A DNA stretch of 21,213 nt from a virus. How positions within the stretch are numbered: position 1 is the stretch's first letter; the number at the start of each line of letters is the position of its first letter. The position numbers and the translations under genes were made by a program. The stretch covers positions 1 to 21,213 of the IMG/VR virus record IMGVR_UViG_3300046535_000607; one strand, given 5' to 3'. The notes beneath the pieces are model-generated. The model was given only the letters and a program-made list of their open reading frames with translations. It did no database searches and had not been told where the DNA came from. Positions 2 to 21,213 of this stretch are shown here, piece after piece.

Positions 2-532
2 GAGTGTGGGCCGGTCTCTAGCGCCCGCCTGAAAGAGGACCGGGACCAGCTATGGGCCGAGGCGGTCGAGGCGTACGAAGGCGGCGAGGACTGGTACACC
101 GTGCCTAAGGAACTGGTCGTGGAAGAGCAGAGCGACCGCCAAATGTCGATCGAGAACTCGGAGCCCTGGTTCCTCAAGATTCGCATGGCCCTTACCGAGC
201 CGGACAACTACTCGAACGAAGTGTTCTACGCTGTGCCGCGCTATGAGAAGGGCCAGAAGACGGAGGACTTCAATATCCGCCTCGGCCCGATGCACGTCAT
301 CTTGGGAATCCTGCTGCAGATCGACGCGGCCCGCCAGTCACAAAACGACGTGGTGCGCCTGACGAAGATTCTGCGGGGGATCGGTTTTAAGAAAGTGCGC
401 CCGTCTGGGAAGTGGATGGGAAGTACCTACGCCTACGAACTGGACAAGGCAACTTCCCCGCACCTGTGGCCTGCAATCGACGCGGCCCGGAAATCCCAAC
501 CCTTCCCGAAGCCGGTCGACGAGACCGCGTAA
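2..532 (+). CDS. VapE-like primase/helicase-type replication protein, C-terminal part (5' end outside window)
   Basis: The reading frame is open from base 2 to the TAA at 530-532, giving 176 residues; the start lies left of the window, and the GTG at 101 is only an internal codon. The first residues include ARLKEDRDQLWAEAVEAY and then DWYTVPKEL, the pattern that ends the ATPase domain of virulence-associated E (VapE) family proteins, where the enzyme is often described as a primase-linked superfamily 3 helicase. The last ~60 residues (RLTKILRGIGFKK, then a basic patch) resemble the small winged-helix-like tail of these proteins. The Walker motifs would lie upstream and cannot be seen. By family it should act in phage DNA replication. 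It is the only plus-strand gene here, converges on the late operon, and its stop directly abuts the Rz-like stop. Family call fairly confident from the tail motif; exact activity is inferred. Confidence 0.75.
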   Translation, partial: ECGPVSSARLKEDRDQLWAEAVEAYEGGEDWYTVPKELVVEEQSDRQMSIENSEPWFLKIRMALTEPDNYSNEVFYAVPRYEKGQKTEDFNIRLGPMHVILGILLQIDAARQSQNDVVRLTKILRGIGFKKVRPSGKWMGSTYAYELDKATSPHLWPAIDAARKSQPFPKPVDETA

Positions 533-1039
533 CTACTTCTTTGCAGGAGGCGGGTCGACTGGCCACGCCTCCTGCAGGGTTTTCACATCGGCTGCGTGCC
601 GGTCAGCCTTTTCAGCCAACTGTCGATATCTTCCTGTGCACTCTTCGAGTACGGCACTAAGGGTTGTGACTGTGTGGCCAAGGGTCTCGGGGGTAGCTTG
701 GGGAACACTGGCTCGGATCGCGGCGAGGGTGTCGCGCAACCGGCCATCAGAGTTGCCAGCAGCAGCAGCGAGAGTGCGGATGGTTTGTTCACGTTCGTTC
801 GCATGGGCGTTCGCCTCCTGTAGCCGCTGAGACCATTGCTCCTCCCGCTCCGATTGGGCCTTCTCGGCCTCGGCTTTTGCGGTATCCCAGCGAGTTTGTA
901 CCTCCTGCGCCCCGAGATTCCGCTCGTGCATCAGGAACTTGTGGATTTCATAGGCCCCCACCAGAGCGCCGCCGCCGATAAGAGCAAGTTCCAGCACGAT
1001 GCGATAGGGGGCGAATCGGAGCAGGAGGGCTTCGAGCAT
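533..1039 (-). CDS. Rz-like inner-membrane spanin (i-spanin)
   Basis: 168 residues from the ATG at 1039, which overlaps the upstream holin-like stop (TGATG) and follows an AGAAGGA ribosome-binding site; a GTG one codon earlier is a possible alternative. One N-terminal transmembrane segment (about residues 14-30) is followed by a long Ala/Glu/Gln-rich helical region (about 40-110) of coiled-coil character and a short C-terminal tail. That is the architecture of Rz, which spans the periplasm and with Rz1 fuses inner and outer membranes in the last step of lysis of Gram-negative hosts. A lipoprotein gene in another frame inside it supports the call strongly. It is the last gene of the leftward operon, and no space remains for a terminator before the convergent gene. 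Confidence 0.85.
   Translation of the reverse strand: MLEALLLRFAPYRIVLELALIGGGALVGAYEIHKFLMHERNLGAQEVQTRWDTAKAEAEKAQSEREEQWSQRLQEANAHANEREQTIRTLAAAAGNSDGRLRDTLAAIRASVPQATPETLGHTVTTLSAVLEECTGRYRQLAEKADRHAADVKTLQEAWPVDPPPAKK
583..804 (-). CDS. Rz1-like outer-membrane spanin lipoprotein (o-spanin), nested in Rz
   Basis: 73 residues, lying wholly inside the Rz-like gene in a different frame. The start ATG at 804 has a strong AGGAGG site 9 nt upstream. The N-terminus has a positive/polar head, a Leu-rich stretch and a lipobox-like LMAGC with the acylated Cys at residue 23 (Met at -3 is a mild departure from the usual Leu). The mature part is proline-rich (PSPRSEPVFPKLPPRPL), typical of Rz1 proteins, which are lipid-anchored in the outer membrane and bind the Rz C-terminus across the periplasm. 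The fully embedded arrangement is the lambda-type Rz/Rz1 layout. Implies a Gram-negative host. Confidence 0.87.
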   Translation of the reverse strand: MRTNVNKPSALSLLLLATLMAGCATPSPRSEPVFPKLPPRPLATQSQPLVPYSKSAQEDIDSWLKRLTGTQPM

Positions 1040-1257
1040 CACGAATCCTTCTTGAGGCCCAGGGCCGCGCCCGTGCCACCCAGCAGCGCCCCCGCCCCGA
1101 CCCCGTACGCCTGCAGGTCGAATGGACGTTTATGGAGCACCACGTCGACCACTGCCAGGGCGATCCCGCCAACGGCGAGACCCAGCGCAATCAGGCGGGC
1201 CGGGCAGAACGTCTTGTTGTCCGGCTCGGTGAACATATCCTGGAAAATCTTCTTCAT
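1039..1257 (-). CDS. holin candidate, two transmembrane segments
   Basis: 72 residues; the ATG at 1257 overlaps the endolysin stop by 4 nt (ATGA), so translation is probably coupled. Two hydrophobic segments (about residues 21-41 and 48-67) are separated by a short charged/polar loop (HKRPFD), and the C-terminus is basic (LKKDS). Small size, two TM segments and position between the endolysin and the spanins fit a holin, the protein that times lysis by opening the inner membrane. No family-specific catalytic motif exists to prove this. The 70-residue membrane protein on the other side of the endolysin is a competing candidate; one may be the holin and the other an antiholin or unrelated. Confidence 0.65.
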   Translation of the reverse strand: MKKIFQDMFTEPDNKTFCPARLIALGLAVGGIALAVVDVVLHKRPFDLQAYGVGAGALLGGTGAALGLKKDS

Positions 1258-1691
1258 TCGACCCCCAGCGTATAATGGGTCGCGCCGCCGAAATGGGCCG
1301 TCAGAACTTGGCGGCGGGGATGGTCGGCGAAACCGATGTGGACCCAGGTGCCCTCGTAAATCAGCTGGTCGAACTCGACCTCGGGGCGCTCGGACAGGAA
1401 TTTGACGATTGCTTGCGGGGTGCCGAATTCGGGACAGGTGAAGTCCACGGCGCGACCCGTCAAGTGTGCGGAATTAGGGGCACCCCCCACCGCCGTGTTG
1501 AGCTTCAAGCTGCGGTAGCCCGAGTTCACATGGATCGGGTGGCCCAGCAGCGTGCGAACGATTTCCAGTTCTTGGGCCGTGGTACGCAGGTTGCGCATCA
1601 CGTCGACGGACGGGGATTGATCGATACACAGGCGAGTGGCGGTGTCGCTGCGCACAAGCTCTTCGACGGTGAAATGGGGGGTGAGGTTCAC
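1254..1691 (-). CDS. M15-family peptidase endolysin (D-Ala-D-Ala carboxypeptidase type)
   Basis: 145 residues when started at the GTG at 1691, which overlaps the preceding TGA stop (GTGA) and has AAGGA upstream; an ATG further upstream at 1754 would overlap the previous gene heavily and lacks a site. Motifs of metallopeptidase family M15A are clear: SGYRS (residues 57-61), SAHLTGRAVD (74-83) giving zinc ligands His76 and Asp83, and TWVHIGF (115-121) giving the third ligand His118, with acidic residues in FDQLIYE (107-113) as candidate catalytic base. Such phage enzymes cut peptide bonds in peptidoglycan stems. There is no signal peptide or SAR segment, so release through a holin is expected. 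Position among membrane proteins and spanins fits the lysis endolysin. Confidence 0.9.
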   Translation of the reverse strand: MNLTPHFTVEELVRSDTATRLCIDQSPSVDVMRNLRTTAQELEIVRTLLGHPIHVNSGYRSLKLNTAVGGAPNSAHLTGRAVDFTCPEFGTPQAIVKFLSERPEVEFDQLIYEGTWVHIGFADHPRRQVLTAHFGGATHYTLGVE

Positions 1692-1900
1692 TTGATGATT
1701 CCTTTCGCGGACAAGAACCCGTAGGTGCCGACGACGATAACGCCGATCACCCACAGCAGTTTGTTGATGATACCCTTGCCCACTTCCTGGTAGATGTGAG
1801 CGGTCATTTTGGCGACAGCCTTTTCAGCTGCCTTCTCGGCGATTTCGTCGATTTGGGCGTCCGTGAGGTGAATTGGCACGTTGTTCCCTAGGTTGGACAT
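1688..1900 (-). CDS. small single-TM membrane protein, lysis-cassette associated
   Basis: 70 residues starting 7 nt after the TAG of the upstream gene and ending in a 4-nt overlap with the endolysin GTG. Residues 10-35 are a charged amphipathic helix (LTDAQIDEIAEKAAEKAVAK), then one strong transmembrane segment (about 48-64) and a short basic end. Proteins of this form, amphipathic helix plus one C-terminal TM, are frequent beside phage endolysins. It could be a holin, antiholin or pinholin-like regulator; the sequence alone does not decide. The tight coupling to the endolysin argues for a lysis role. Confidence 0.65.
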   Translation of the reverse strand: MSNLGNNVPIHLTDAQIDEIAEKAAEKAVAKMTAHIYQEVGKGIINKLLWVIGVIVVGTYGFLSAKGIIK

Positions 1901-1907
1901 TGAAGGT

Positions 1908-2252
1908 CTACCTCTCTTCCGGAGGTAGTTGAGTTCGGAGCTTTTCCGACTGGTACGCCTGCTCGCAGTGACGGTACTGCCAGAAGAATACCACGTCGAC
2001 TATCTTCCTGGCAATCCCCCCTGTAGGACTATTCCTACACCGCCACGAGCGAGCGCTGATGCTCTCATCGGCCCACCCCCCGAGGAGGGCGTTGCCGAGT
2101 TGATCAAGCGCCAGCAGGACCTGCGTTAATTGGGCACTGAGGCAGGAGGCCCAAGAGGTCGGCCGTTGTTGCAGGGCAGACCATTTGTCCCGCCCGGACT
2201 TTGCCCAGAAGAGTATAGCAAGTGCTGTAAACAGAATCCATCCAAGTTGCAT
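1908..2252 (-). CDS. small phage protein with N-terminal TM and conserved LALDQ...GGWADES / FFWQ region
   Basis: 114 residues from the ATG at 2252, ending at the TAG 1908-1910. Residues ~4-17 (GWILFTALAILFWA) are hydrophobic and probably a membrane anchor. The C-terminal 70 residues (LLALDQLGNALLGGWADES, then VVFFWQYRHCEQAYQSEK) resemble a short conserved protein I have seen beside phage lysis or tail genes; its function is unknown to me. The start is uncertain: from 2252 the gene overlaps the upstream tail-accessory gene by 149 nt in another frame, while the recognisable part begins only around 2130, where no ATG, GTG or TTG is in frame (CTG codons exist near 2120). The coding call is sound for the distal half and moderate for the N-terminus. 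Confidence 0.62.
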   Translation of the reverse strand: MQLGWILFTALAILFWAKSGRDKWSALQQRPTSWASCLSAQLTQVLLALDQLGNALLGGWADESISARSWRCRNSPTGGIARKIVDVVFFWQYRHCEQAYQSEKLRTQLPPEER

Positions 2253-2535
2253 AGGTCACCCCCTCGTCGTGAAATGGTCCCGGATACCCGGCGCGGAGAG
2301 CCGCCGTGTGAATCGAGTCGTAGTTTCTGCGGGCCGCGCCCTCGGCAAGCATCCCGTCGACCGCCACCAGGAATTCCGCCTCGGTCGGCAACACGGGGGG
2401 CGGTGGCGTGAACTTCTCCCCGTCCCACAAGTGACCGACATTGGAATCGGCCGGATCGACGAAGCGATGACCGTCGAACGCGTTCACCTCGGCGAAGTTC
2501 ACCACCACGCCATCTTCAATTTGTGCTGCACGCAT
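2104..2535 (-). CDS. tail-fibre accessory/assembly-type protein
   Basis: 143 residues; the ATG at 2535 follows AAGGAG by 7 nt. Residues 1-50 (AAQIEDGVVVNFAEVN..., ending LWDGEKFTPPPP) match the common opening of phage tail-fibre assembly or fibre-associated proteins, a short beta module ending in W-x-G-x-x-F-x-P-P. Residues ~70-130 contain the ALRAGYPGPFHDEG and TYATWMDSVYSTCYTLL segments, a helical domain seen at the C-terminus of phage tail proteins. It lies immediately after the glycine-rich adhesin candidate, where chaperones or tip proteins of fibres are usually encoded. Function by position is inferred. Its 3' third is overlapped by the following gene. Confidence 0.6.
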   Translation of the reverse strand: MRAAQIEDGVVVNFAEVNAFDGHRFVDPADSNVGHLWDGEKFTPPPPVLPTEAEFLVAVDGMLAEGAARRNYDSIHTAALRAGYPGPFHDEGVTYATWMDSVYSTCYTLLGKVRAGQMVCPATTADLLGLLPQCPINAGPAGA

Positions 2536-2544
2536 GTCTGCTCC

Positions 2545-3375
2545 TTACCACCAGTAGATACGGACTTCACCACGGAAGCCATTGCCGCCTTTGCCGCCAG
2601 CCTGAGCAGCGTACGCAGCGCCACCACCACCGCCACCGCCCCCATTCGCCGTGGCATTACCACCAGGACTTCCGGGAACGGTATTGTCACCGCCCGTGCC
2701 GCCGCCGCCCCCCGTGCCCACCGCCATCCCGCCGAAGTAGCCCACGCCACCGTTAGCGTTCGCTGGGGTCGCGGGGACGTTCACGCCCGGTCCGACAGTG
2801 AATCCACCAGTGAATGGACCACCGCCGACGAATGGCGATTGTCCACCACCACCACCAGTCGGGGCAACATACCCGAGATTCTGCGCGCTGGTGCCCGCCG
2901 TCCCCGAATCGGTGCCCTTGCCTCCTTGGCCCCCGCCTGCGGAGTTGAACACAGCAAACGACCCCTGCTGTGCGTATCCACCGGTGACGGTCACTTGTCC
3001 AGGCTGACCGGCATTGCCGCCCGGCAGGGTGAAAAAGCCGCCAAACGACGTCGTGCCGCCTGCGGTGCCGTTCGAGCCATAAACGCTCACCCCCGCCGCC
3101 GAACCAGCGCCGCCCACCCCGCCTGCGCCCACAATGACAGGCACGGGCGCGGTCAAGAAGGCGGCAGGGAATAAGCAGCAAACGATACCGCCGCCTGCCC
3201 CGCCCGCCCCGCCCGAAGGCGACCCCCCGCTGCCGCCGCCTGCGCCACCGCCGCCGCCCGAAATGGCCTCTACAAAGTAGAAGTTAGCCCCAGGTTGCGG
3301 GGGAAACACTCCACTGGTGGTCATCACCAGCGATTTGGCCCCCGGAGGGACCGTGAAACCAGCCGGGAAAGTCAT
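2545..3375 (-). CDS. glycine-rich tail tip / receptor-binding protein candidate
   Basis: 276 residues, starting with an ATG that overlaps the upstream stop (TAATG). After ~38 residues the chain is dominated by glycine, with poly-Gly runs at about 39-45 and near the C-terminus separated by short hydrophobic or beta-like strands, and it closes with FRGEVRIYWW. This pattern is known from phage fibre tips whose glycine-rich segments form packed polyproline-II helices that carry variable receptor-binding loops (the S16 gp38-type adhesin is the structural precedent). Its place, two genes after the fibre and before a fibre accessory gene, fits a distal adhesin that sets host range. Low-complexity composition makes family assignment uncertain; an alternative is a general structural glycine-rich protein. 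Confidence 0.6.
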   Translation of the reverse strand: MTFPAGFTVPPGAKSLVMTTSGVFPPQPGANFYFVEAISGGGGGAGGGSGGSPSGGAGGAGGGIVCCLFPAAFLTAPVPVIVGAGGVGGAGSAAGVSVYGSNGTAGGTTSFGGFFTLPGGNAGQPGQVTVTGGYAQQGSFAVFNSAGGGQGGKGTDSGTAGTSAQNLGYVAPTGGGGGQSPFVGGGPFTGGFTVGPGVNVPATPANANGGVGYFGGMAVGTGGGGGTGGDNTVPGSPGGNATANGGGGGGGGAAYAAQAGGKGGNGFRGEVRIYWW

Positions 3376-10548: not shown

Positions 10549-11962
10549 TGAAGTACGCTCCCATGACGGTAAACGGGGTCGGCTCCGAGTAGGACAATTC
10601 GAATACCCGGTCGCGGGCCTGACCGAGGCGCAGGAAGCGGACGCGTTGGCGGAAGTTGCCCGCCTTGCCGATCGATTTCATCCGGGCGTTCCTGAATGTG
10701 TGGCCGTAGTCATCGGACCAGCGCAACTTGACTTGGGGATCGGAGCCCTGGCCGGACTGGAGGCCGACGCCGGTTTCGATGGCGAATTCGATGTTGTTGT
10801 ACGAGACCTTCGTGCCCCCTTTGCTCAGGTGCGGAGCAGTGCGAAGGCGCACCAGGGGATTGCCGTCATCCGTGTACAACAGCGTGGACATCTTGTAGAG
10901 CTTGCCGCGATTCCAGTCGCCGACGATATTCGCCCCCCCGAAGAACACGTGGCAATTGCCGCGATGCCTGGAGAAAGTGCCGGTAATATCGAGCCATGCA
11001 CGCTGGTGCCACGTGGCGCTGGTCATGTCGTAGACCCAAGTGATGTTTTGGGTCGGGAAGGTCAACATGTAGAAATAGTGGCCCTCGGCGGCATACGTGA
11101 ACCCGATAGCGTCGGAAATCACCGGGTAAGTCGCGATCTCCTGTTCGAGCGAGTGGTCACTGATGCGCGAAGTCGCCAGACCTTGGGTGCGGAATACGAC
11201 GCCCTGGCCTTGGTCGTTGGCCGACAAGAAGAACAACGATCCGTTCATCCGGGCGACACTCGACTTGGCGGCACAGCCTTGCTCAATCAGGACACCTGGA
11301 ATCTTGGAGTACGGGAACGGCTGAGTCGGGTCCGGAGCCCATACTTCGAGCGTCTGCGTGCCGAACAGCCATACCTCTTGGTTCGCCACTGCTAGGGTGA
11401 TAAGCGCGTCCGGCGTCGCCTCGGCAGTGGCGAACCACAGCGGGTCGATGGTGGTCGAGTACGGCTTCATGCCCCAAAACTTGCCCGAGTTGGGCTGATT
11501 GAACAGATAGCTGCCGTTGATGAAGTATACCGCATCGGCCCCGAAGAAGTTCGCGTCGACGTACTTCGTGACCGTGTTGGCGGCGGGATCGATCACGTAC
11601 GCCTCGGTGCCGGTTACGAACACCACATTGATGCCATTGGTGGCCATCGACACGGGGGTATCCACGGACGTAATCGCGCCGATAACGGTCGCGACCCCGG
11701 CAGCAGTGACCCGGAGGACCTTCGGGCCAGTCACGACGAACAAGCTGTTCGCATCGAATACCAACATGCCGCGAACACCACGATCGCCGACTGCGGTGAA
11801 GTCGCAGAACGACTGCAGGCCGGGGGCGCTCACCAGCTTGGCTGGGGTCTTGGATGTCGAACTGGCCGACACTTCCGGATACATGTTGACCGTGCGCTGA
11901 GCGTCGAAGCTCGCTGCACGGTCCTTGTGGGAACTACCCACGAATCCAACGAGTTCAGGCAT
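10535..11962 (-). CDS. P22 gp10-like packaged-DNA stabilisation / tail hub protein
   Basis: 475 residues from the ATG at 11962, which overlaps the gp4-like stop (TAATG); this gives MPELVGFVGSSHKDRAASFD. The length is very close to P22 gp10 (~470). The chain has the hallmark opening RAASFDAQRTVNMYPE and a long series of beta repeats such as FVVTGPKVLRVT and EVWLFGTQTLEVWA, consistent with a beta-propeller-like hub. In P22, gp10 binds gp4 below the portal and closes the packaged head together with the needle. The order gp4 then gp10 matches the P22 group. Confident family call by pattern and synteny. Confidence 0.85.
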   Translation of the reverse strand: MPELVGFVGSSHKDRAASFDAQRTVNMYPEVSASSTSKTPAKLVSAPGLQSFCDFTAVGDRGVRGMLVFDANSLFVVTGPKVLRVTAAGVATVIGAITSVDTPVSMATNGINVVFVTGTEAYVIDPAANTVTKYVDANFFGADAVYFINGSYLFNQPNSGKFWGMKPYSTTIDPLWFATAEATPDALITLAVANQEVWLFGTQTLEVWAPDPTQPFPYSKIPGVLIEQGCAAKSSVARMNGSLFFLSANDQGQGVVFRTQGLATSRISDHSLEQEIATYPVISDAIGFTYAAEGHYFYMLTFPTQNITWVYDMTSATWHQRAWLDITGTFSRHRGNCHVFFGGANIVGDWNRGKLYKMSTLLYTDDGNPLVRLRTAPHLSKGGTKVSYNNIEFAIETGVGLQSGQGSDPQVKLRWSDDYGHTFRNARMKSIGKAGNFRQRVRFLRLGQARDRVFELSYSEPTPFTVMGAYFNVEQ

Positions 11963-12684
11963 TATCCAACCCTCCAATCCCAGCTACGGCCCGACTGGAC
12001 ATTCGGGATATCGTCGAACGTGGCCGGGGTCGGGTCGCTGTTTGCGTTCTTGATGTCACGCAGCGCTTGCTTCGCGATGTTCTTGACCGACGTGATATCG
12101 GTGGTGCTATTCGTGTACTCGGGCCAGAGTTCGACCGCCAGATTGTACCGGATCGCGCGCAAGTAGCCGGGCGGGAGGTTCAGCACGGTCTGCAAGGTCA
12201 GCGGGGTCGCGAATTGGCGGTCGGTCTGGAACGAGAGGGTGACTGCCTCGGTCGGGACCGGGAAGCAGGTCAACACCCCCAACGGGAAGGAATTGATGTA
12301 TAACACCTTCTCGATGAGAGGCTGCGAGGTGCTCTTGAGAGCGATGCTGTCGTATTGGTCCTGCGTGACGACTTCCACGGGGGTGGACACGCCGTTGCGG
12401 ATGCAGGTGGCATTATTGATTCGGACCGGGCGCTGCGTGGTGAAACCGGTCGGGCCAGCGGTGAGACCCCAATTGTAGGTGGCCTGTCCTGGAGTCAGGA
12501 CCCAATTCTCGTTGGTGCTGCCATATACGGCATAAGGCTGAGTATCCCAGCCGTCGAGCATTTCATTGAGGGTCAGCAGCGCGTCGTTGAGGTCAGCATT
12601 GTCCGGAATCTCGCCCGCAGCGATCGCATTGATCAGGTACATGGAACGACGGATCAGGTCGACTACTGCGATGGATTGGGACAT
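11962..12684 (-). CDS. P22 gp4-like tail accessory factor (head completion)
   Basis: 240 residues; the ATG at 12684 has a weak AAGAG upstream. Residues 1-55 (VVDLIRRSMYLINAIAAGE, DLNDALLTLNEMLDGW) are the helical part that in P22-type gp4 sits against the portal ring. A beta region follows (WVLTPGQATYNWG, PVRINNATCIRNG), then an LPPGYLRAIRYNLAVELWPEY segment typical of this family. In P22, gp4 is the first protein added after packaging and stops DNA leaking. It is longer than P22 gp4 (~166 residues), which is usual for relatives outside the enterobacterial group. A stable hairpin lies in the 80-nt gap upstream. Confidence 0.85.
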   Translation of the reverse strand: MSQSIAVVDLIRRSMYLINAIAAGEIPDNADLNDALLTLNEMLDGWDTQPYAVYGSTNENWVLTPGQATYNWGLTAGPTGFTTQRPVRINNATCIRNGVSTPVEVVTQDQYDSIALKSTSQPLIEKVLYINSFPLGVLTCFPVPTEAVTLSFQTDRQFATPLTLQTVLNLPPGYLRAIRYNLAVELWPEYTNSTTDITSVKNIAKQALRDIKNANSDPTPATFDDIPNVQSGRSWDWRVG

Positions 12685-12714
12685 GGTTTTCTCTTAGAGG
12701 CTACGGGAGGCGGG

Positions 12715-12755
12715 CGGACCGGTCCAGGCTATGTCGGCCCGTGCGGACCGGTCCG
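12715..12755 (-). repeat. paired GGACCGGTCC palindromes forming an 11-bp stem
   Basis: The self-complementary decamer GGACCGGTCC occurs twice, at 12716-12725 and 12745-12754, in the gap between the 49-aa gene and gp4. On the transcribed strand the two copies pair as CGGACCGGTCC with GGACCGGTCCG, giving a perfect 11-bp GC-rich stem with a 19-nt loop. No T-run follows, so it is not a standard terminator. It could be an mRNA stability or processing element, or, because each copy is itself palindromic, a pair of protein-binding sites 29 bp apart. Confidence 0.6.
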
Positions 12756-12765
12756 AGGGGCGGGA

Positions 12766-12915
12766 TCAGGCCGTGACGGTGGTGACCGAGCCATCGGGAG
12801 CATCGTGCCACTCGTCGCCGAGGGCTTTTTCCTCGTCGGCGTTGTTGACGATACGCTGCTTGGTCAGGTCGCCGTCATGGTACAGCATTTTCGGGTATTC
12901 TTGGATATCGGACAT
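12766..12915 (-). CDS. 49-aa acidic small phage protein (YPKMLYHDG motif)
   Basis: The ATG at 12915 has a strong AGGAG 6 nt upstream and the frame runs to TGA at 12766-12768. The product starts MSDIQEYPKMLYHDGDLTKQ and continues with IVNNADEEKALGDEW. It matches a small conserved type that I recognise from many phage head modules: Y-P-K-M-L-Y-H near the start, then V-x-N-x-x-[DE]-E and G-[DE]-x-W. The role is unknown; it lies between a UUCG hairpin and the hairpin before gp4, so it can be expressed separately from its neighbours. The good ribosome site and family pattern make it a real gene despite its size. Confidence 0.8.
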   Translation of the reverse strand: MSDIQEYPKMLYHDGDLTKQRIVNNADEEKALGDEWHDAPDGSVTTVTA

Positions 12916-12939
12916 GTTGTTCTCCTGGAGTTAGGAATT

Positions 12940-12955
12940 GGGGGCCGAAGCCCCC
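12940..12955 (-). terminator. UUCG-loop hairpin, attenuator or weak terminator (copy 2)
   Basis: On the transcribed strand GGGGGC-TTCG-GCCCCC forms a 6-bp GC stem closed by the very stable UUCG tetraloop, just after the decoration-like gene. It is followed by AATTCC, not a T-run, so complete termination is unlikely; partial termination, RNA end protection or processing is more plausible. It is identical to the hairpin at 13545-13560. Confidence 0.55.
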
Positions 12956-12961
12956 GGTGGA

Positions 12962-13519
12962 TTACTGCGGGCTGGTGAGGGAGCCGCCCGGATTCAGGAT
13001 GGCCCAATCGACCGAAACGGCGGCAGTCGCGTTGGCGTTGCCGTAGATGGTCACCGAGCCATTGGCCGGGACCACGCGTTGGACCGAGGTCAAGGTGCCG
13101 TCAGCCGCTGCCTGGGCGATCACCGCGTAGACGATGGATTGCAGGTTGATCAGCGGGTTGGTGATGGTCACCGACGATTGGCCCGCCGAAATGCCAGCAC
13201 AGCCGCCAGTGGCCGTGGTCGAGACGTTGCCAGGGGTCGGGGGACCCGCCGACACCGAGGCTTGGCCAGCCTGGACCAGGGCCGCTTCGGTCGACGCCGA
13301 CAATTCGATGACGGTGCCGGGCTGGTAACCCTGGATCGGGCGCGTGCCGACCAGGATGAATCCGCCCTGGCGACGCAGGCCGAATTGCGGAGCGGATGCG
13401 CCGGTCAGGTGGCGGTCGGCGAAGTTGGTGACGGCGTCGGCGGCTTTGTCGACCACCGAGAAGGCGGCGGCGAGGCCGGTCAGGAGCAGCAGTTTCAGGC
13501 GGTTCAGCGTATTTTTCAT
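12962..13519 (-). CDS. putative head decoration / accessory virion protein
   Basis: 185 residues from the ATG at 13519 with GAGGAA upstream; longer frames upstream would run through a hairpin and the coat gene end. Residues 1-22 (KNTLNRLKLLLLTGLAAAF) are a hydrophobic segment with basic residues before it, like a membrane anchor or signal. Residues ~45-100 include GGFILVGTRPIQGYQPGTVIEL. The C-terminal ~70 residues (SSVTITNPLINLQSIV, then VPANGSVTIYGNANATAAVSVDWA) look like a beta-sandwich. Position directly after the coat gene, behind a UUCG hairpin, suggests a capsid decoration or accessory protein. I do not recognise a defined family. The anchor-like N-terminus is odd for a capsid protein. 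Confidence 0.7.
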   Translation of the reverse strand: MKNTLNRLKLLLLTGLAAAFSVVDKAADAVTNFADRHLTGASAPQFGLRRQGGFILVGTRPIQGYQPGTVIELSASTEAALVQAGQASVSAGPPTPGNVSTTATGGCAGISAGQSSVTITNPLINLQSIVYAVIAQAAADGTLTSVQRVVPANGSVTIYGNANATAAVSVDWAILNPGGSLTSPQ

Positions 13520-13539
13520 GATGGTTCCTCGAAGTTCAT

Positions 13540-13560
13540 GGAAAGGGGGCCGAAGCCCCC
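13540..13560 (-). terminator. UUCG-loop hairpin with short T-tract after the coat gene (copy 1)
   Basis: The transcribed strand reads GGGGGC-TTCG-GCCCCC followed by TTTCC, 8 nt after the coat gene stop. The GC stem plus UUCG loop plus short U-tract fits a leaky intrinsic terminator that would keep coat mRNA abundant relative to the genes downstream. It could equally protect the 3' end of a processed coat mRNA. Confidence 0.65.
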
Positions 13561-13568
13561 AGGTCGTC

Positions 13569-14786
13569 TTACAGCGCGTAGCCGCAGGACAGTTCGGCGT
13601 AAGGCGCAGCCCAGCCGTACAGCACGTCGATACGCATGATCGAAGTGTCACCCATGCCGTCGTAGAATTCCGTCACTTTCAGACGGAAGCCCTTGTACTC
13701 GGTCTGGGTAACGTCGACGACGCCCTTGCCGTCCTTCGGAGCCCACATCGGCACCATGGCCAGCGTGAATGCGTCCTTGTGGAAGCCAGGGTTGAAGGCA
13801 TACTGGCCGCTGGCGGTGCCGAAGATCGTGACGGCGGCGGCGTTGACCGGGCTCGCGGACACGTTCTGGAACACGCCGGTCGGGATCAGAGCCGGGCTGA
13901 TCGACAGCGAGGTTGCACCGGCTGCAGCGTCGGCGGTCACGACGAACTGAGCCAGCGTGCCGGTCGACTGGCGCGATTGCGGGTTGACGGCGTAGACACC
14001 AGCGAAGCTGATCTTCGAGCCACGGGTGATGTTGCCGGTGATCGTGCCGCCGTTGACGTTGATCACGCTGCCCGACTGGCCAGCGCCGTTGACGGTTGCC
14101 GCGCCGACCGGCTGCGAGCCGTTGACGTGGTTCTGGACGTTCTGGTCCATGGCGTAAGCCAGACCCAGCGAATCCACCATCATGCCCTGCTTCATCTGCT
14201 TGTCGATGATCGAGGCCGAGTTGAACATGCCCGACATGCCGACGACCATCGAAGCGTTCAGGGCCGGATTCATGATCAGGCCACGGCGCTTGTCACGCGG
14301 GGCACCGAGTTCGTCCAGGCGCTGATTCAGGCCGGTCACAGCTTGCATCGCGGCCAGCTGGGTGTTCGGGGCAGCGCCCGGAGTGCCGATCACGTTCGGC
14401 GAGTTCAGGCGGGCCATGTCCAGGCCGCGACGGTCGATTTCGTTGGCGACGGTGGCGATCGCTGCCTGGATTTTGTCTTCCAGCTTCGACAGGGTCAGGG
14501 TGCGCTCAGCGCCGGTGAACTGCAGGTCGCAACCACCTTGCGCCAGGGTCAGCGGGATGGTCGACTCGACGGTGCTCTGCGGCGTGGCGACGCGGCCATC
14601 GCGGTACTGGTAACGCGGCGGGCGCTTGATGTTGATGGTCTGGCCCGGCGAGTAGCCGCGCGACATGTTGGAGGTGAATTCATCCTCCCAATCGCGGTTG
14701 ACCATCGACGAGAAGCCCAGCATGTTTTCCAGGATGGCGACGGCTTCCTTGGCCACCACTGCGGTTGTTGCGAGTACGTTGGACAT
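13569..14786 (-). CDS. major capsid (coat) protein, P22 gp5-like
   Basis: 405 residues; the ATG at 14786 has AGGA upstream. The opening MSNVLATTAVVAKEAVAILE, then NRDWEDEFTSN and SPGQTINIKRPPRY, with LQFTGAERTLTLSKLEDKI, follow the P22-type coat family (HK97 fold with an inserted domain; P22 coat is 430 residues). The N-arm, the spine helix (KLEDKIQAAIATVANEID) and a later beta insertion (GSVINVNGGTITGNITRG) are visible in order. It forms the capsid shell over the scaffold encoded just upstream. A 26-nt gap with a good ribosome site precedes it and a UUCG hairpin follows it, consistent with high independent output. Confidence 0.9.
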   Translation of the reverse strand: MSNVLATTAVVAKEAVAILENMLGFSSMVNRDWEDEFTSNMSRGYSPGQTINIKRPPRYQYRDGRVATPQSTVESTIPLTLAQGGCDLQFTGAERTLTLSKLEDKIQAAIATVANEIDRRGLDMARLNSPNVIGTPGAAPNTQLAAMQAVTGLNQRLDELGAPRDKRRGLIMNPALNASMVVGMSGMFNSASIIDKQMKQGMMVDSLGLAYAMDQNVQNHVNGSQPVGAATVNGAGQSGSVINVNGGTITGNITRGSKISFAGVYAVNPQSRQSTGTLAQFVVTADAAAGATSLSISPALIPTGVFQNVSASPVNAAAVTIFGTASGQYAFNPGFHKDAFTLAMVPMWAPKDGKGVVDVTQTEYKGFRLKVTEFYDGMGDTSIMRIDVLYGWAAPYAELSCGYAL

Positions 14787-18027: not shown

Positions 18028-18374
18028 TATTTACCCTTGGTCTTGATGATAATTGCGTGCATTCGGGCGAGCATCACCTTGTCCCCGTTCGGGAGCGGCG
18101 TGAAACCGAACTTCCCGTACCATTCGACAAGCTGCTCAGTCGACATCGGCTCGTCGTCGAAGGGCTCCACCATGAGGACCAGGACGATCTTGCGATTGTC
18201 GGCATCCTTGCAGATGTAATTCATGAGTTCCGTAGCATGGCCCTTGTGCCGGAATTCCGGCAGGGTCTGCAGGTGCGAAATCTCGCGGATGTCCTTCTTC
18301 ATGTGAGCAGGCAGTGCATCGCAGAATGATACCATGCACTTTGCTCCTTCGTAAACGCGTTCACCGATTCTCAT
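18027..18374 (-). CDS. GNAT-like acetyltransferase between terminase and portal
   Basis: 115 residues when started at the ATG at 18374, which overlaps the TerL stop (TAATG); a TTG 12 nt upstream could extend it by four residues. The core of a compact GNAT fold is visible: ISHLQTLPEFRHKGHATELM (32-51) gives strand 4 and motif A with R42-H43-K44-G45-H46-A47 for acetyl-CoA binding, KIVLVLMVEP is strand 5, and LVEWYGKFGFTPL (82-94) is motif B. The N-terminal part is short compared with typical GNATs (~140-160 residues). Its substrate is unknown. It lies inside the packaging block, joined by overlaps at both ends, which is unusual for a modifying enzyme. Confidence 0.78.
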   Translation of the reverse strand: MRIGERVYEGAKCMVSFCDALPAHMKKDIREISHLQTLPEFRHKGHATELMNYICKDADNRKIVLVLMVEPFDDEPMSTEQLVEWYGKFGFTPLPNGDKVMLARMHAIIIKTKGK

Positions 18375-19723
18375 TATCCCATCCAATCCCCGGCCACATA
18401 GCCCATATCGTCTTCAATCTCCTCGCGAACCTTCCGGCCCTTCACCATGCCGGGAAACAGTTCTGCGAGCGCCCAAAACAAAGCATCGGCCCTATTCGGG
18501 GAACCGGTGCCCACGTATCCAATCGTCGAGAAGTGCACGATCTCCTCTTCCAAGTCCTGGAACCGCCCGACGTGCCGCACTTTCCCCTGCTCGTACAACG
18601 CCGAGAAGGGTTCCGCCCGGATATGCTTCCCTCGGGAGGCCGTGACGGTCTTGAAGGGGGTCTTCGGACGGCTGGTCTGGATCACGAACTTCACCATTGC
18701 GCCACCGTAGTTGGTCTCGCCCACGATCACGTCGGCCTCGTGCCGGTCGTAAGCGGAGGTGGCAACGTCGCCCCAGACCTTCGGCCCCGCCTTGACGGTA
18801 CAATCCTCCAGGATGTATGCGTTGCCGTCGATACCCAGGCCCGCCACCACGATACCAATCGCGTCGTTCTCGGCGTTGTCCTTGTCGTCGGAGCCGGACG
18901 GGTCGACAGCCACCACAATGCGGACGAACTCGGGAATGTCATCATCCCCCGCCCGCCACATTTCGATAATCTCGTCCTTGAACAGGGCATTCTGCGTTGC
19001 GTCGGCGAAGTCGCCGTCCTTGAAACGCTTCCGCAGGCGGGCGGACAACTGCCCCAGCGTGTCCATGTACGTGGAGCTTAAGTTCTCCTTGTTGTCCTCC
19101 GGGTTCATCTTGCAGAACACGTAGTCAGCAGGATTCGGCAGGCTGATCTTGGTATCCGGGTCGACCTTCTGGATGAACAGCTTGTACGTCCAGTGCATCT
19201 TGTTGGACGGATTGCAGTCGTAGAATGCGCGGGGCTTGAGGTAGACGCCGGGCTGGCCGTCAACCTCCACCTGCTGTGCAAGGCGGGTCATCGCCATGCC
19301 GCGTGCTTCGTTGGTGATCTGGCTGGCCTCGTTCAGGTACATCGTAACGTATTCTTGGCCCAGAATCTTCTCGGTGCGCTCCTTGTCGTCCAGGCCGCCG
19401 AACCAAATCTCGGAGCCATTGGGGAAGCGCACGAACCAATCCGTCTTACTCAGGTTGTACGTGATTTCCGGGTAGCAGACCTTCATGACCTTCGGGAAGG
19501 TATCGAAGATCACCGAGGCTTTGATGTGGTTGAAACGGAAACGCAGGATGGCGTGCCTGGACCCGGATGCCTTGAGCGCGCGGAGCACGATGTTGCGGAC
19601 GTGGAGGAACGTCTTGCCCGAACGGGAGCCGCCGTAAAGCATGCCGTGCGTGGCCGACCCCGCCAGAATGGCTTGGGCCTCCTGTTGCTTCGCGGTGAGC
19701 TTGAATTCGGTACGCTGAGCCAT
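18374..19723 (-). CDS. terL: terminase large subunit (packaging ATPase/nuclease)
   Basis: 449 residues; the ATG at 19723 overlaps the 39-aa gene stop (TAATG). Walker A is GGSRSGKT (31-38); the Walker B-like strand is VTMYLNEAS (126-134) with catalytic Glu132, where Asn131 replaces the usual Asp. The C-terminal RNase H-like nuclease shows three well-placed acidic residues: Asp274 in VVAVDPSGS, Glu336 in VIVGETNYGG and Asp413 in NRADALFWAL. The enzyme pumps DNA through the portal and cuts the concatemer. Slightly shorter than P22 gp2 (499). Follows terS in the packaging block. Confidence 0.95.
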   Translation of the reverse strand: MAQRTEFKLTAKQQEAQAILAGSATHGMLYGGSRSGKTFLHVRNIVLRALKASGSRHAILRFRFNHIKASVIFDTFPKVMKVCYPEITYNLSKTDWFVRFPNGSEIWFGGLDDKERTEKILGQEYVTMYLNEASQITNEARGMAMTRLAQQVEVDGQPGVYLKPRAFYDCNPSNKMHWTYKLFIQKVDPDTKISLPNPADYVFCKMNPEDNKENLSSTYMDTLGQLSARLRKRFKDGDFADATQNALFKDEIIEMWRAGDDDIPEFVRIVVAVDPSGSDDKDNAENDAIGIVVAGLGIDGNAYILEDCTVKAGPKVWGDVATSAYDRHEADVIVGETNYGGAMVKFVIQTSRPKTPFKTVTASRGKHIRAEPFSALYEQGKVRHVGRFQDLEEEIVHFSTIGYVGTGSPNRADALFWALAELFPGMVKGRKVREEIEDDMGYVAGDWMG

Positions 19724-19842
19724 TATTCTTCGCCCAGGTGATGCGACCAGAACAGGTCAATCAGACCGGTGATGGCGGGGGCGCACAACACGCCAGCCAG
19801 GAAGCACGCTCCCATGATCGCAGAAAGTTCGAATCCGTTCAT
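19723..19842 (-). CDS. 39-aa membrane miniprotein between terS and terL
   Basis: A short frame from ATG (19842-19840) to TAA (19725-19723) overlaps the terS stop by one base (TGATG) and the terL start by one base (TAATG), so it fits the gap exactly. The product begins MNGFELSAIMGACFLAGVLC and continues APAITGLIDLFWSHHLGEE. Residues ~6-30 are a single transmembrane-like helix with two Cys and small residues, ending in an acidic tail. The exact junctions with both neighbours and the clean hydrophobic segment argue for a real gene. I know no function; a membrane anchor or toxin-like peptide in the packaging block would be unexpected. Confidence 0.72.
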   Translation of the reverse strand: MNGFELSAIMGACFLAGVLCAPAITGLIDLFWSHHLGEE

Positions 19843-20360
19843 CAGATGTCCTTGTCGTGAGGTGAAGCCATATTGACCTGGATGACGACTTGGTTGCCAC
19901 CAGGGTTCTTGTTCTTGGCGTCGTGCTTCTGGTAAATACCGACCGCCTCGCCCCGGCTGCGTTCCGCGCTGAAAGCCACCTTGAGCTCACCCGTGGCAAT
20001 GCTCAGGTCGCGAATGCGGGCCAATTCGGTAAGGTGCGCGCCGACTGAAATCAGGCAGGCGTCCTCAACACTGTCGGTAATCGCCTTGATCTTGAGGGCC
20101 ACGGCAGGCAAGCCCATAAGCTCCTTACCACGGGCGGTGGGCATCTTGGCATCATCGCCGAACGCGGCCTTATACGCAGCAGCGATGTTGCCGCCGTACT
20201 CCACCACGGCCAAGGCGAAGTCCTCTTGCTCACGGGTGAGGGGCGGATACGCAAACACCACGGGCTCTTGAGCCTGGATTGTGGCCACCGGGAAGTCCTG
20301 TTGAAGGTCCACGGGGCCTGCCTGGAGGTCGGCGGTGTAGGTGGGGTCGAGTTCAGTCAT
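19842..20360 (-). CDS. terS: terminase small subunit
   Basis: 172 residues (P22 gp3 is 162). Residues ~42-95 (LTREQEDFALAVVEYGGNIAAAY, then LPAVALKIKAI) match the small-terminase helix-turn-helix DNA-binding domain, with the L-x-x-x-Q-x-x-F start and the GN-x-x-x-A core. The middle is helical (VEDACLISVGAHLTELARI) for oligomerisation, and the C-terminus (NPGGNQVVIQVNMASPHDKDI) is the typical beta tail that contacts TerL. It recognises the packaging site in phage DNA. The ATG at 20360 has no ribosome site and falls where transcription should start, so translation is probably leaderless unless an internal GTG is used. Confidence 0.85.
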   Translation of the reverse strand: MTELDPTYTADLQAGPVDLQQDFPVATIQAQEPVVFAYPPLTREQEDFALAVVEYGGNIAAAYKAAFGDDAKMPTARGKELMGLPAVALKIKAITDSVEDACLISVGAHLTELARIRDLSIATGELKVAFSAERSRGEAVGIYQKHDAKNKNPGGNQVVIQVNMASPHDKDI

Positions 20361-20366
20361 CTGGCG

Positions 20367-20395
20367 AGTATACCACGTTCGGGGACTTGCGTCAA
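20367..20395 (-). promoter_or_regulatory. sigma70 promoter for terS and the late operon
   Basis: On the minus strand -35 TTGACG (20395-20390, five of six) and -10 TATACT (20372-20367, five of six) are 17 nt apart, with TGG before the -10 (extended -10). The -10 ends six bases before the terS ATG, so the transcript should begin at or within a base or two of that ATG. The CGTGG next to the -10 is shared with the scaffold promoter. Confidence 0.75.
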
Positions 20396-20637
20396 GTTAT
20401 ATTCCCGGCGAGGTTTTTCGTTTCCGGAGCGAGCCGCATTTGGGGTGGGAATTCGTACGGGTACTGCGGAGCGAGGTATAGGGGCCTAAGGCCATGTTCC
20501 GGGGTGTTTTTTCTATGTAGAGGAATCCCGGCAAATCCCGGATCGGGTTCAACCTTTCCAAGGGGTGGGGGTGGCATTGGCACGAATCTTGCCTTCCCTG
20601 GAACCTCCCTGGGTAATCTGGCACGGGCCTTGCTAAG

Positions 20638-20690
20638 TAGTGAGCGCTAACTGGGGCGTTGCACGTGGTTAGTGAGTGCTAACTGGGGCG
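20638..20690. repeat. two 21-bp direct repeats with 32-bp period
   Basis: 20638-20658 and 20670-20690 are identical except for one C/T, sharing the core GAGYGCTAACTGGGGCG. The second copy with its preceding base forms GTTAG-N6-CTAAC, a dyad of operator type. The 32-bp period puts both copies on nearly the same face of the helix. A CACGTG lies between them at 20662-20667. Confidence 0.75.
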
Positions 20691-20776
20691 GTCAATGGGT
20701 CTGACCCCGGCTCTCTGCTGCGCCGCACCATGGCCTTCCCGCTGCCCCCCACTGGCCTCGGCACAGGGCCTAAGGG

Positions 20777-20792
20777 TGCTTCACGTGAAACG
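20777..20792. promoter_or_regulatory. parS-like palindrome, site 1
   Basis: The sequence TGCTTCACGTGAAACG matches 14 of 16 positions of the universal bacterial chromosomal parS consensus TGTTTCACGTGAAACA; the inner 10 bases TTCACGTGAA are a perfect palindrome. It lies in non-coding DNA. ParB-family proteins bind such sites in chromosome segregation; no parA or parB lies in the window. Confidence 0.6.
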
Positions 20793-20864
20793 CAGACGTG
20801 CGGTCGAGCGGTCCCCCCGCCCTGCTCCATGCGGATACCCCCCCACTCCACCCCCTCCACCCCG

Positions 20865-20978
20865 CTCCTACCACTCCAGGTCTCTCCCAGGGAGGGTCGT
20901 CGTGTCCTGCCGTCCTATCTCAGGGTATCCCAGACCCCACCACCGCCCAGCCCTCTAGAGGGGGTGGAGTGGTAGGAG
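20865..20978. repeat. 14-bp perfect inverted repeat, arms 86 bp apart
   Basis: CTCCTACCACTCCA (20865-20878) is exactly complementary to TGGAGTGGTAGGAG (20965-20978). The flanking C-rich and G-rich tracts extend the complementarity imperfectly, so the stretch could form a large stem or cruciform with a 12-bp palindrome close to the right arm. Confidence 0.7.
20951..20962. repeat. 12-bp perfect palindrome CCCTCTAGAGGG
   Basis: CCCTCTAGAGGG is fully self-complementary and sits directly beside the GGAGTG tandem, at the point where the plus strand switches from C-rich to G-rich. It may be a dimer-binding site or part of a larger extruded structure. Confidence 0.6.
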
Positions 20979-21013
20979 TGGTAGGAGTGTCGGGGCGGAG
21001 CCTGCTCCTGGCT

Positions 21014-21057
21014 ACCTGGAGTGGGGGTGGAGTGGGGTGGCCAGCACCTGGAGTGGG
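21014..21057. repeat. 12-bp direct repeat ACCTGGAGTGGG with 32-bp period
   Basis: ACCTGGAGTGGG occurs at 21014-21025 and 21046-21057, again with a 32-bp period, the same as the repeat pair at 20638-20690. A further GGAGTG lies between them at 21029-21034. Confidence 0.65.
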
Positions 21058-21137
21058 TTCGACCTTAGAGCCTCTAATCGGGGAGCCGCTAGAGCGAGGT
21101 CTCACCTCTCGGCCCATGGCCCGCCGCCAGTCGCCCA

Positions 21138-21153
21138 AGTTCCACGTGAAACA
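21138..21153. promoter_or_regulatory. parS-like palindrome, site 2
   Basis: AGTTCCACGTGAAACA matches 14 of 16 positions of TGTTTCACGTGAAACA, and 15 of 16 if position 5 is allowed to vary as in the Bacillus consensus TGTTNCACGTGAAACA. It lies 361 bp from site 1 in the same non-coding region. Confidence 0.65.
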
Positions 21154-21213
21154 GGTCCAAGCCCCATCAGGCAAGACTCGTGCCAGTATAACTTGAGCTC
21201 ATGGCTCGATGGT

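Follow-up and report, generated by a model that had tools for sequence, protein, structure and literature searches.

Candidate host-type parS sites upstream of the terminase genes in a clade of P22-like podophages

The window analysed here is the entire 21,213-base virus record, a fragment that covers the late half of the genome of a P22-like podophage. Its coat, portal and large terminase subunit (TerL; 18374..19723, minus strand) were named by similarity, TerL also serving for the clade tree described below, and its scaffold, lysis and tail genes as well as the small terminase subunit (terS; 19842..20360, minus strand) by their place and by comparison with relatives; 2 of 48 relatives' proteins subjected to a Pfam scan match Terminase_2 and are presumably their TerS. 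On the left, a plus-strand frame at 2..532, cut by the contig end, encodes the C-terminal part of a VapE-like primase with 53% identity to the primase of the relative G017. In relatives the corresponding sequence is the end of the VapE-like primase, with which the early operon closes, so that the window lacks the early half of the genome. Between the late (terS) operon and the missing early operon lies a candidate non-coding control region (20361..21213), which runs off the contig; a gap like it is present whole in relatives.

The preliminary description of this DNA had pointed to two parS-like palindromes, each matching the consensus at 14 of 16 positions. Taking as a parS-like site any 16-bp palindrome with at most two mismatches to TGTTTCACGTGAAACA, a limit also applied in PMC10197239, we confirmed both of them by consensus scan, shuffles and clade comparison: palindrome 1, TGCTTCACGTGAAACG, at 20777..20792 and palindrome 2, AGTTCCACGTGAAACA, at 21138..21153, neither assigned a strand, each with two mismatches and thus of the chromosomal type. 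Even at up to three mismatches the whole window yields just these two. Dinucleotide shuffles of the window (n=100) contained on average 0.06 matches and in no case two (0/100), which bears out the earlier claim that a pair is improbable by chance. When T or C at position 5 and A or G at position 12 are permitted, as in bacterial parS, the mismatches become two for site 1 and one for site 2; site 1 has one mismatch inside the 14-bp core, at position 3, and the core of site 2 is perfect. A third CACGTG core at 20662..20667, said earlier to keep a single half-site, is indeed present in degenerate form with one near half-site, and was not counted. Both palindromes lie upstream of terS within 20361..21213 and, as had been stated, outside genes, in so far as this stretch, whose open reading frames are low-complexity frames, is taken as non-coding.

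Relatives were collected by a TerL search of viral contigs, which gave 13 loci and, when carried out with an alignment, the best 80 of at least 540 relatives, and by a TerS search, which gave 17 loci; a single-sequence TerS search returned one distant locus only. Upstream of terS, sites including TGTTCCACGTGGAACG, TGTTTCACGTGGAACG and TGTTCCACGTGGAACA were found in close relatives. We found that 13 of 16 hand-picked clade loci, the window included, carry 24 parS-like sites within 5 kb upstream of TerL, four of them in the contig of L145 and one or two in each of the remaining 12 loci, while the late-gene DNA downstream of the TerL start (up to 5 kb) has none in any of the 16. In a half-site permutation control, 3,359 palindromes reached on average 0.07 loci and none reached 13; the best of them, at 12 loci, are close variants of parS. 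This test omitted the copies L139 and L218, site-less rows whose upstream DNA is short, and the TerS-only relatives L223 and L224 (sites present) and L217 (no sites). A site was also noted in the contig of L153 (L243). The window and L004, with less than 1.5 kb upstream of TerL, were retained in the test and in the tree since they are site-positive; minus these two, 11 of 14 loci have sites.

A TerL tree with 95 rows places the window in a clade of 25 rows (SH-aLRT 97), 14 of which have sites, four have none and seven have too little upstream DNA, and among the 70 rows outside the clade three have sites, 48 have none and 19 are undecidable; a row with less than 1.8 kb upstream entered the count if it had a site and not otherwise, a rule to the advantage of the window and L004. 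Gain and loss of the sites on this tree require at least five changes. Conservation in relatives, proposed earlier as a check, therefore holds for these 14 clade rows and 13 loci and fails in L142, L162/L218 (one contig), L220 and the TerS relative L217, which has the polymerase DpoZ. Because these lack parS-like sites, the sites are not essential; in L142 the rest of the control region is kept, including the sigma-54-type sites described below, and parS is absent. The flanks of 29 sites, 24 from the clade and five from the cultured phage BUCT555, carry mostly 0-0.3 bit of information, with a maximum of 0.5. The 14-bp core alone is common to the 29 sites, a conservation that stems in part from selecting sites at two mismatches or fewer, and, as in chromosomal parS, position 5 alternates between T and C and position 12 between A and G. 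Given the clade-wide sites, the permutation control and the low-bit flanks, we conclude that the 14-bp palindrome is retained while the surrounding sequence changes. That base composition alone produced these sites, as E-box-like palindromes in GC-rich DNA, is an idea best suited to single occurrences: a lone two-mismatch site is weak by itself, and PBR31 has one inside a gene. The shuffles, the permuted palindromes, the clade-wide conservation and the downstream late genes devoid of sites make chance a very improbable explanation for the window, and for the clade as a whole it is refuted.

The control region also contains three exact predicted sigma-54-type promoter sites, defined by GG-N10-GC at -24/-12 within TGGCACRNNNNTTGCY, the last letter of which was widened from W to Y post hoc. 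Two of them, TGGCACGAATCTTGCC at 20578..20593 and TGGCACGGGCCTTGCT at 20619..20634, are on the plus strand and point away from terS; the third, TGGCACGAGTCTTGCC at 21170..21185, is on the minus strand, and parS 2 is 16 bp downstream of it. Altogether 19 exact TGGCACRNNNNTTGCY sites occur in 10 of 14 clade loci covering 199,930 bp (the window, L005, L006, L138, L142-L144, L148, L152 and L206), all of them within the control region, upstream of the terminase genes, and none was found in seven other phage records; the best of 2,000 permuted motifs reaches five loci. A search of 12 records for a sigma-54 activator gene gave none. Two further palindromes were read by eye in the window, AGTAGTGAGCGCTAAC at 20636..20651, a degenerate GTTAGTG..CACTAAC element, and GTTAGTGAGTGCTAAC at 20668..20683; neither is listed by the scan for such elements, which covered just the opposite strand here. 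The GTTAGTG..CACTAAC family lies near sigma-54-type sites, with like elements in L007, L142, L150 and L206, and is possibly an activator or repressor site. Separately, CACTCCTACCACTCC-like repeats, inverted and G-rich on one strand, are found at 20840-21040 of the window and in L004, L005, L006 and L142. Mimicry of the host origin was also considered and rejected: G012 has two DnaA-box matches, G017 one and BUCT555 none, and none is near parS.

With promoter-like sites so close by, host ParB might act mainly as a local transcription regulator beside divergent sigma-54-type promoters, bound ParB blocking or timing early or late transcription with no role in segregation. Ten regions contain both elements, and in 6 of them the starts of parS and of a sigma-54-type site are no more than 65 bp apart (mean under the null 2.6 of 10, P ~0.02); in the window, as noted, parS 2 is 16 bp downstream of such a site. 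The test is weak, however, since the null was our own choice, the 65-bp limit and the region length were set after viewing the sites, and L150 entered it through a promoter with one mismatch. Such regulation has parallels in two publications, according to which parS cloned upstream of repA leads to plasmid failure in ParB excess (PMC4368675) and ParB near parS alters gene expression in P. aeruginosa (PMC7022226). On the other hand, side and distance vary, the latter exceeding 150 bp in 4 of the 10 regions, L004, L007 and L145 have parS but lack a sigma-54-type site, and BUCT555 has five parS sites but no exact sigma-54-type site. We regard a mainly regulatory role as rather unlikely; it is compatible with the recruitment of host ParB that we favour below.

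The preliminary description had offered, as one alternative, a plasmid-like prophage using its own ParB, and had proposed a search for parA/parB or a lone ParB-like gene. That search came back empty: ParB_N matched nothing in 20 records (the window, 15 clade contigs and four outside the clade), and TIGR00180, HTH_ParB and the tyrosine-integrase profile matched nothing in 12 records, which included BUCT555, a complete genome, and the terminally redundant G012, complete as judged from its first bases recurring after 36,460 bp. In control runs the profiles were positive in 9-14 of 14 known genomes. A Pfam scan of 48 proteins selected from G012 and G017, the one scan that covered parA, turned up families for packaging, structure, nucleotides, replication and lysis, and ParA, ParB, integrase and repressor are not among the 25 listed of 31 families. 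Moreover, one scan of GTDB by two peptide patterns revealed no TerL relative. The records searched, of which the window is without its early half, thus yielded no parB, nor the 48 proteins a parA among the families listed, such as a ParABS locus or phage-plasmid would carry, and the tyrosine integrase and GTDB relative by which an integrating temperate phage would be recognised were absent from the 12 records and the scan, respectively. The plasmid-like prophage with its own ParB was accordingly not borne out, nor did the 12 records hold a tyrosine integrase that would signal chromosomal lysogeny; the clade phages look virulent, with orphan parS sites.

Two database annotations touch on these results. 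The BUCT555 gene at 11687-13957 is annotated 'integrase', but the tyrosine-integrase profile does not detect it, and its positional counterparts in phages ZP6 and VP2 bear the name DNA primase. In MW202557 (L236), a distant portal relative with no parS-like site at up to three mismatches, the gene at 11457-12299 is annotated putative parB. The latter annotation lends something to the view that the palindromes are bound by a protein that the phage encodes, be it a ParB or some other regulator, in a plasmid-like prophage or as operators, and so do the location of the sites where operators would be, the missing early half of the window and the early proteins scanned, nine of ten of which match no PHROG family. 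We nevertheless consider a phage-encoded binder improbable in view of the profile and Pfam results above; furthermore, the early protein family shared with BUCT555 also occurs in Z-phages without parS, and the match to chromosomal parS would have to be a coincidence.

Genes of 2-aminoadenine (Z) DNA chemistry recur among the relatives. DpoZ exceeds its curated cut-off in 6 of 38 contigs, five of which belong to the clade by the tree and the sixth (L217) by TerS only; the genes are in L229 (G017, 460-3350), L227/L228 (G012), G003, G013, G014 and G060. G017 passes the curated cut-offs of both PurZ and DpoZ, and G017 and G012 have PurZ-like and HD nucleotidase genes, G012 also a dATP/dGTP pyrophosphohydrolase; the window is without the early half of its genome. 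From the DpoZ genes of the clade relatives, together with PurZ in G017, this lineage of P22-like structure probably makes 2-aminoadenine DNA. Outside the clade, the contig of L202 (G053:C1:5421-7244) encodes a polymerase that resembles DpoZ but scores far below the curated cut-off. An early protein family with the motif ..HLNxGQQxMN.. (L227 9956-10618 and 11755-12735; L237 38177-38869; L239, L240, L242), mostly in two copies per genome, was found in the Z-phages examined and is absent from 10 further records listed, and is a possible Z-phage marker; as a partner of parS it was rejected, since it is also present in Z-phages without parS.

Stenotrophomonas phage BUCT555 (MW291508), a cultured and deposited Z-phage grown on a named strain of S. 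maltophilia, resembles the clade in its DpoZ (35%) and PurZ (37%, both to G017) and in having five orphan parS sites at two mismatches or fewer, but differs in its terminase, portal and capsid and in the lack of exact sigma-54-type sites. None of 40 first-order simulated BUCT555 sequences contained a site, and no sites at two mismatches or fewer occur in the Z-phages Alteromonas ZP6, Vibrio VP2 and Acinetobacter SH-Ab 15497. One BUCT555 site, TGTTCCACGTGGAACG, is identical to the chromosomal parS of X. citri, which is located at the 3' end of dnaN according to PMC3937727; a copy of this 16-mer is found in Stenotrophomonas humi, next to dnaA and 4 bp from where dnaN ends. Three of the five BUCT555 sites are inside annotated genes, and two of these sites force the identical peptide LFHVE in unrelated small genes, a coincidence that we read as a sign of selection on the DNA. 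Among the matches listed, the TGTTCCACGTGGAACG 16-mer is found in many bacterial groups, so that a BUCT555-type site does not point to the host of the window.

Among known systems, chromosomal parS (X. citri TGTTCCACGTGGAACG; P. aeruginosa parS1-4) shares with the window's clade the 14-bp core GTTYCACGTGRAAC, and BUCT555, L006 and L145 contain the X. citri 16-mer; the window sites differ in being phage-borne, degenerate by one or two bases and not near the host oriC. The phage-plasmids P1 and N15 and the mycobacteriophage RedRock encode their own ParABS. They resemble the window as phage genomes bearing a centromere-like site, whereas in the window's clade parB and tyrosine integrase were not found and the site is of the chromosomal type. 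Rhodoferax phage P26218 is a near cultured structural relative of the window (portal 49.6%, coat 67%), but it has no parS-like sites at two mismatches or fewer, no TerL match and other replication genes.

The closest precedent is Bacillus phage phi29, in which host Spo0J (ParB), in work attributed to Meijer and colleagues in 2005, is said to act on phage parS and to carry phage DNA into spores. We found four exact TGTTYCACGTGRAACA sites (TGTTTCACGTGGAACA) in the phi29 genome. Like the clade, phi29 is a virulent podophage with exact parS sites, no ParB among its annotated genes and divergent early and late transcription. Unlike the clade, it has an unrelated 19 kb genome, protein-primed replication and a sporulating Gram-positive host; its sites are spread across the genome, three of four inside genes, whereas the clade has one to four sites upstream of terS, mostly with sigma-54-type sites and in a lineage with Z-DNA genes. 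We know of no sporulation in hosts of the clade phages, so the benefit to phi29 is not directly transferable. What the two have in common is the orphan arrangement, host-type parS, often in several copies, and no parB in the records searched. The earlier statement that no P22-like phage with such sites had been described stands for P22-like phages in the literature we found, but for phages at large phi29, with its four exact sites, is a precedent. Titles and abstract openings retrieved by our search mention no orphan host-type parS in a phage, a search that also missed the phi29/Spo0J work, and in a review of chromosomal ParB (PMC7022226) the word 'phage' does not occur.

Exact TGTTYCACGTGRAACA sites occur in at least 120 viral loci; of 120 listed, 24 have two or more sites at two mismatches or fewer and five match phi29 proteins. 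A ParB_N gene was found in one contig when 49 of the 120 listed and BUCT555 were searched. That orphan parS is widespread among viruses is thereby no more than hinted at, since single-site contigs include chance matches and many contigs are fragments. The phi29-like contigs with exact parS are L030, L111, L029, L059 and L076, L030 having four sites between ORFs. Contigs of other types with two to five exact parS sites, mostly between ORFs, are L047, L100, L046 and L018, of which L018, L100 and, weakly, L047 have genes resembling those of a terminase or portal.

What we observe, then, are conserved sites, their location, their match to host parS, and relatives in which the searches found no ParB or tyrosine integrase. 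We propose, with a probability of about 0.5, that the window palindromes are orphan host-type parS sites that nucleate the chromosomal ParB of the host, by which phage DNA would be positioned in the cell or shared out to daughters. The parts of this proposal differ in strength: judged by the sequences, host ParB very probably binds the phage sites, and by analogy it is an even call whether the sites serve genome positioning or inheritance. ParB loads at parS as a CTP-dependent clamp and then spreads. Host ParB would load on the phage sites in the same manner, spread over the phage control region and tie the phage genome to the ParA, nucleoid or SMC machinery of the host, so that phage DNA would be positioned in the cell and divided between daughters while lytic growth is delayed, as reported for phi29 and Spo0J; loaded ParB could also affect nearby promoters. 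Recruitment of host ParB, the other alternative raised in the preliminary description, thus gains support from the conservation in the clade, from the ParB_N search and from BUCT555, which bears the exact parS of its host genus. The sites might instead be decoys, the many replicating copies of the phage titrating ParB off the host origin and disturbing segregation or division. The four sites of the L145 contig and the five of BUCT555 would suit such a function, but the other 12 of the 13 site-bearing clade loci have one or two, and we find titration quite improbable. We think that genome positioning or inheritance is the most likely role, followed by local promoter control and lastly titration.

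If host ParB does load on these sites, then phages other than those of Bacillus exploit the bacterial centromere system while encoding none of its parts, which would offer a concrete route to pseudolysogeny and to the location of phage DNA in the cell and would raise the question of how ParB clamps fare on aminoadenine DNA. As a tentative extension, which we hold to be possible though doubtful, the two kinds of elements may form a waiting strategy: in virulent Z-DNA phages the sigma-54-type promoters would gate transcription, tying the onset of early and late expression to host physiology, and the orphan parS would hand the non-integrated genome to host ParABS, so that in a starved host the waiting phage genome would be inherited along with the host origin. 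Were this true, it would be a Gram-negative, spore-free counterpart of phi29 spore entrapment, and host-type parS would be a feature of phages from several unrelated families.
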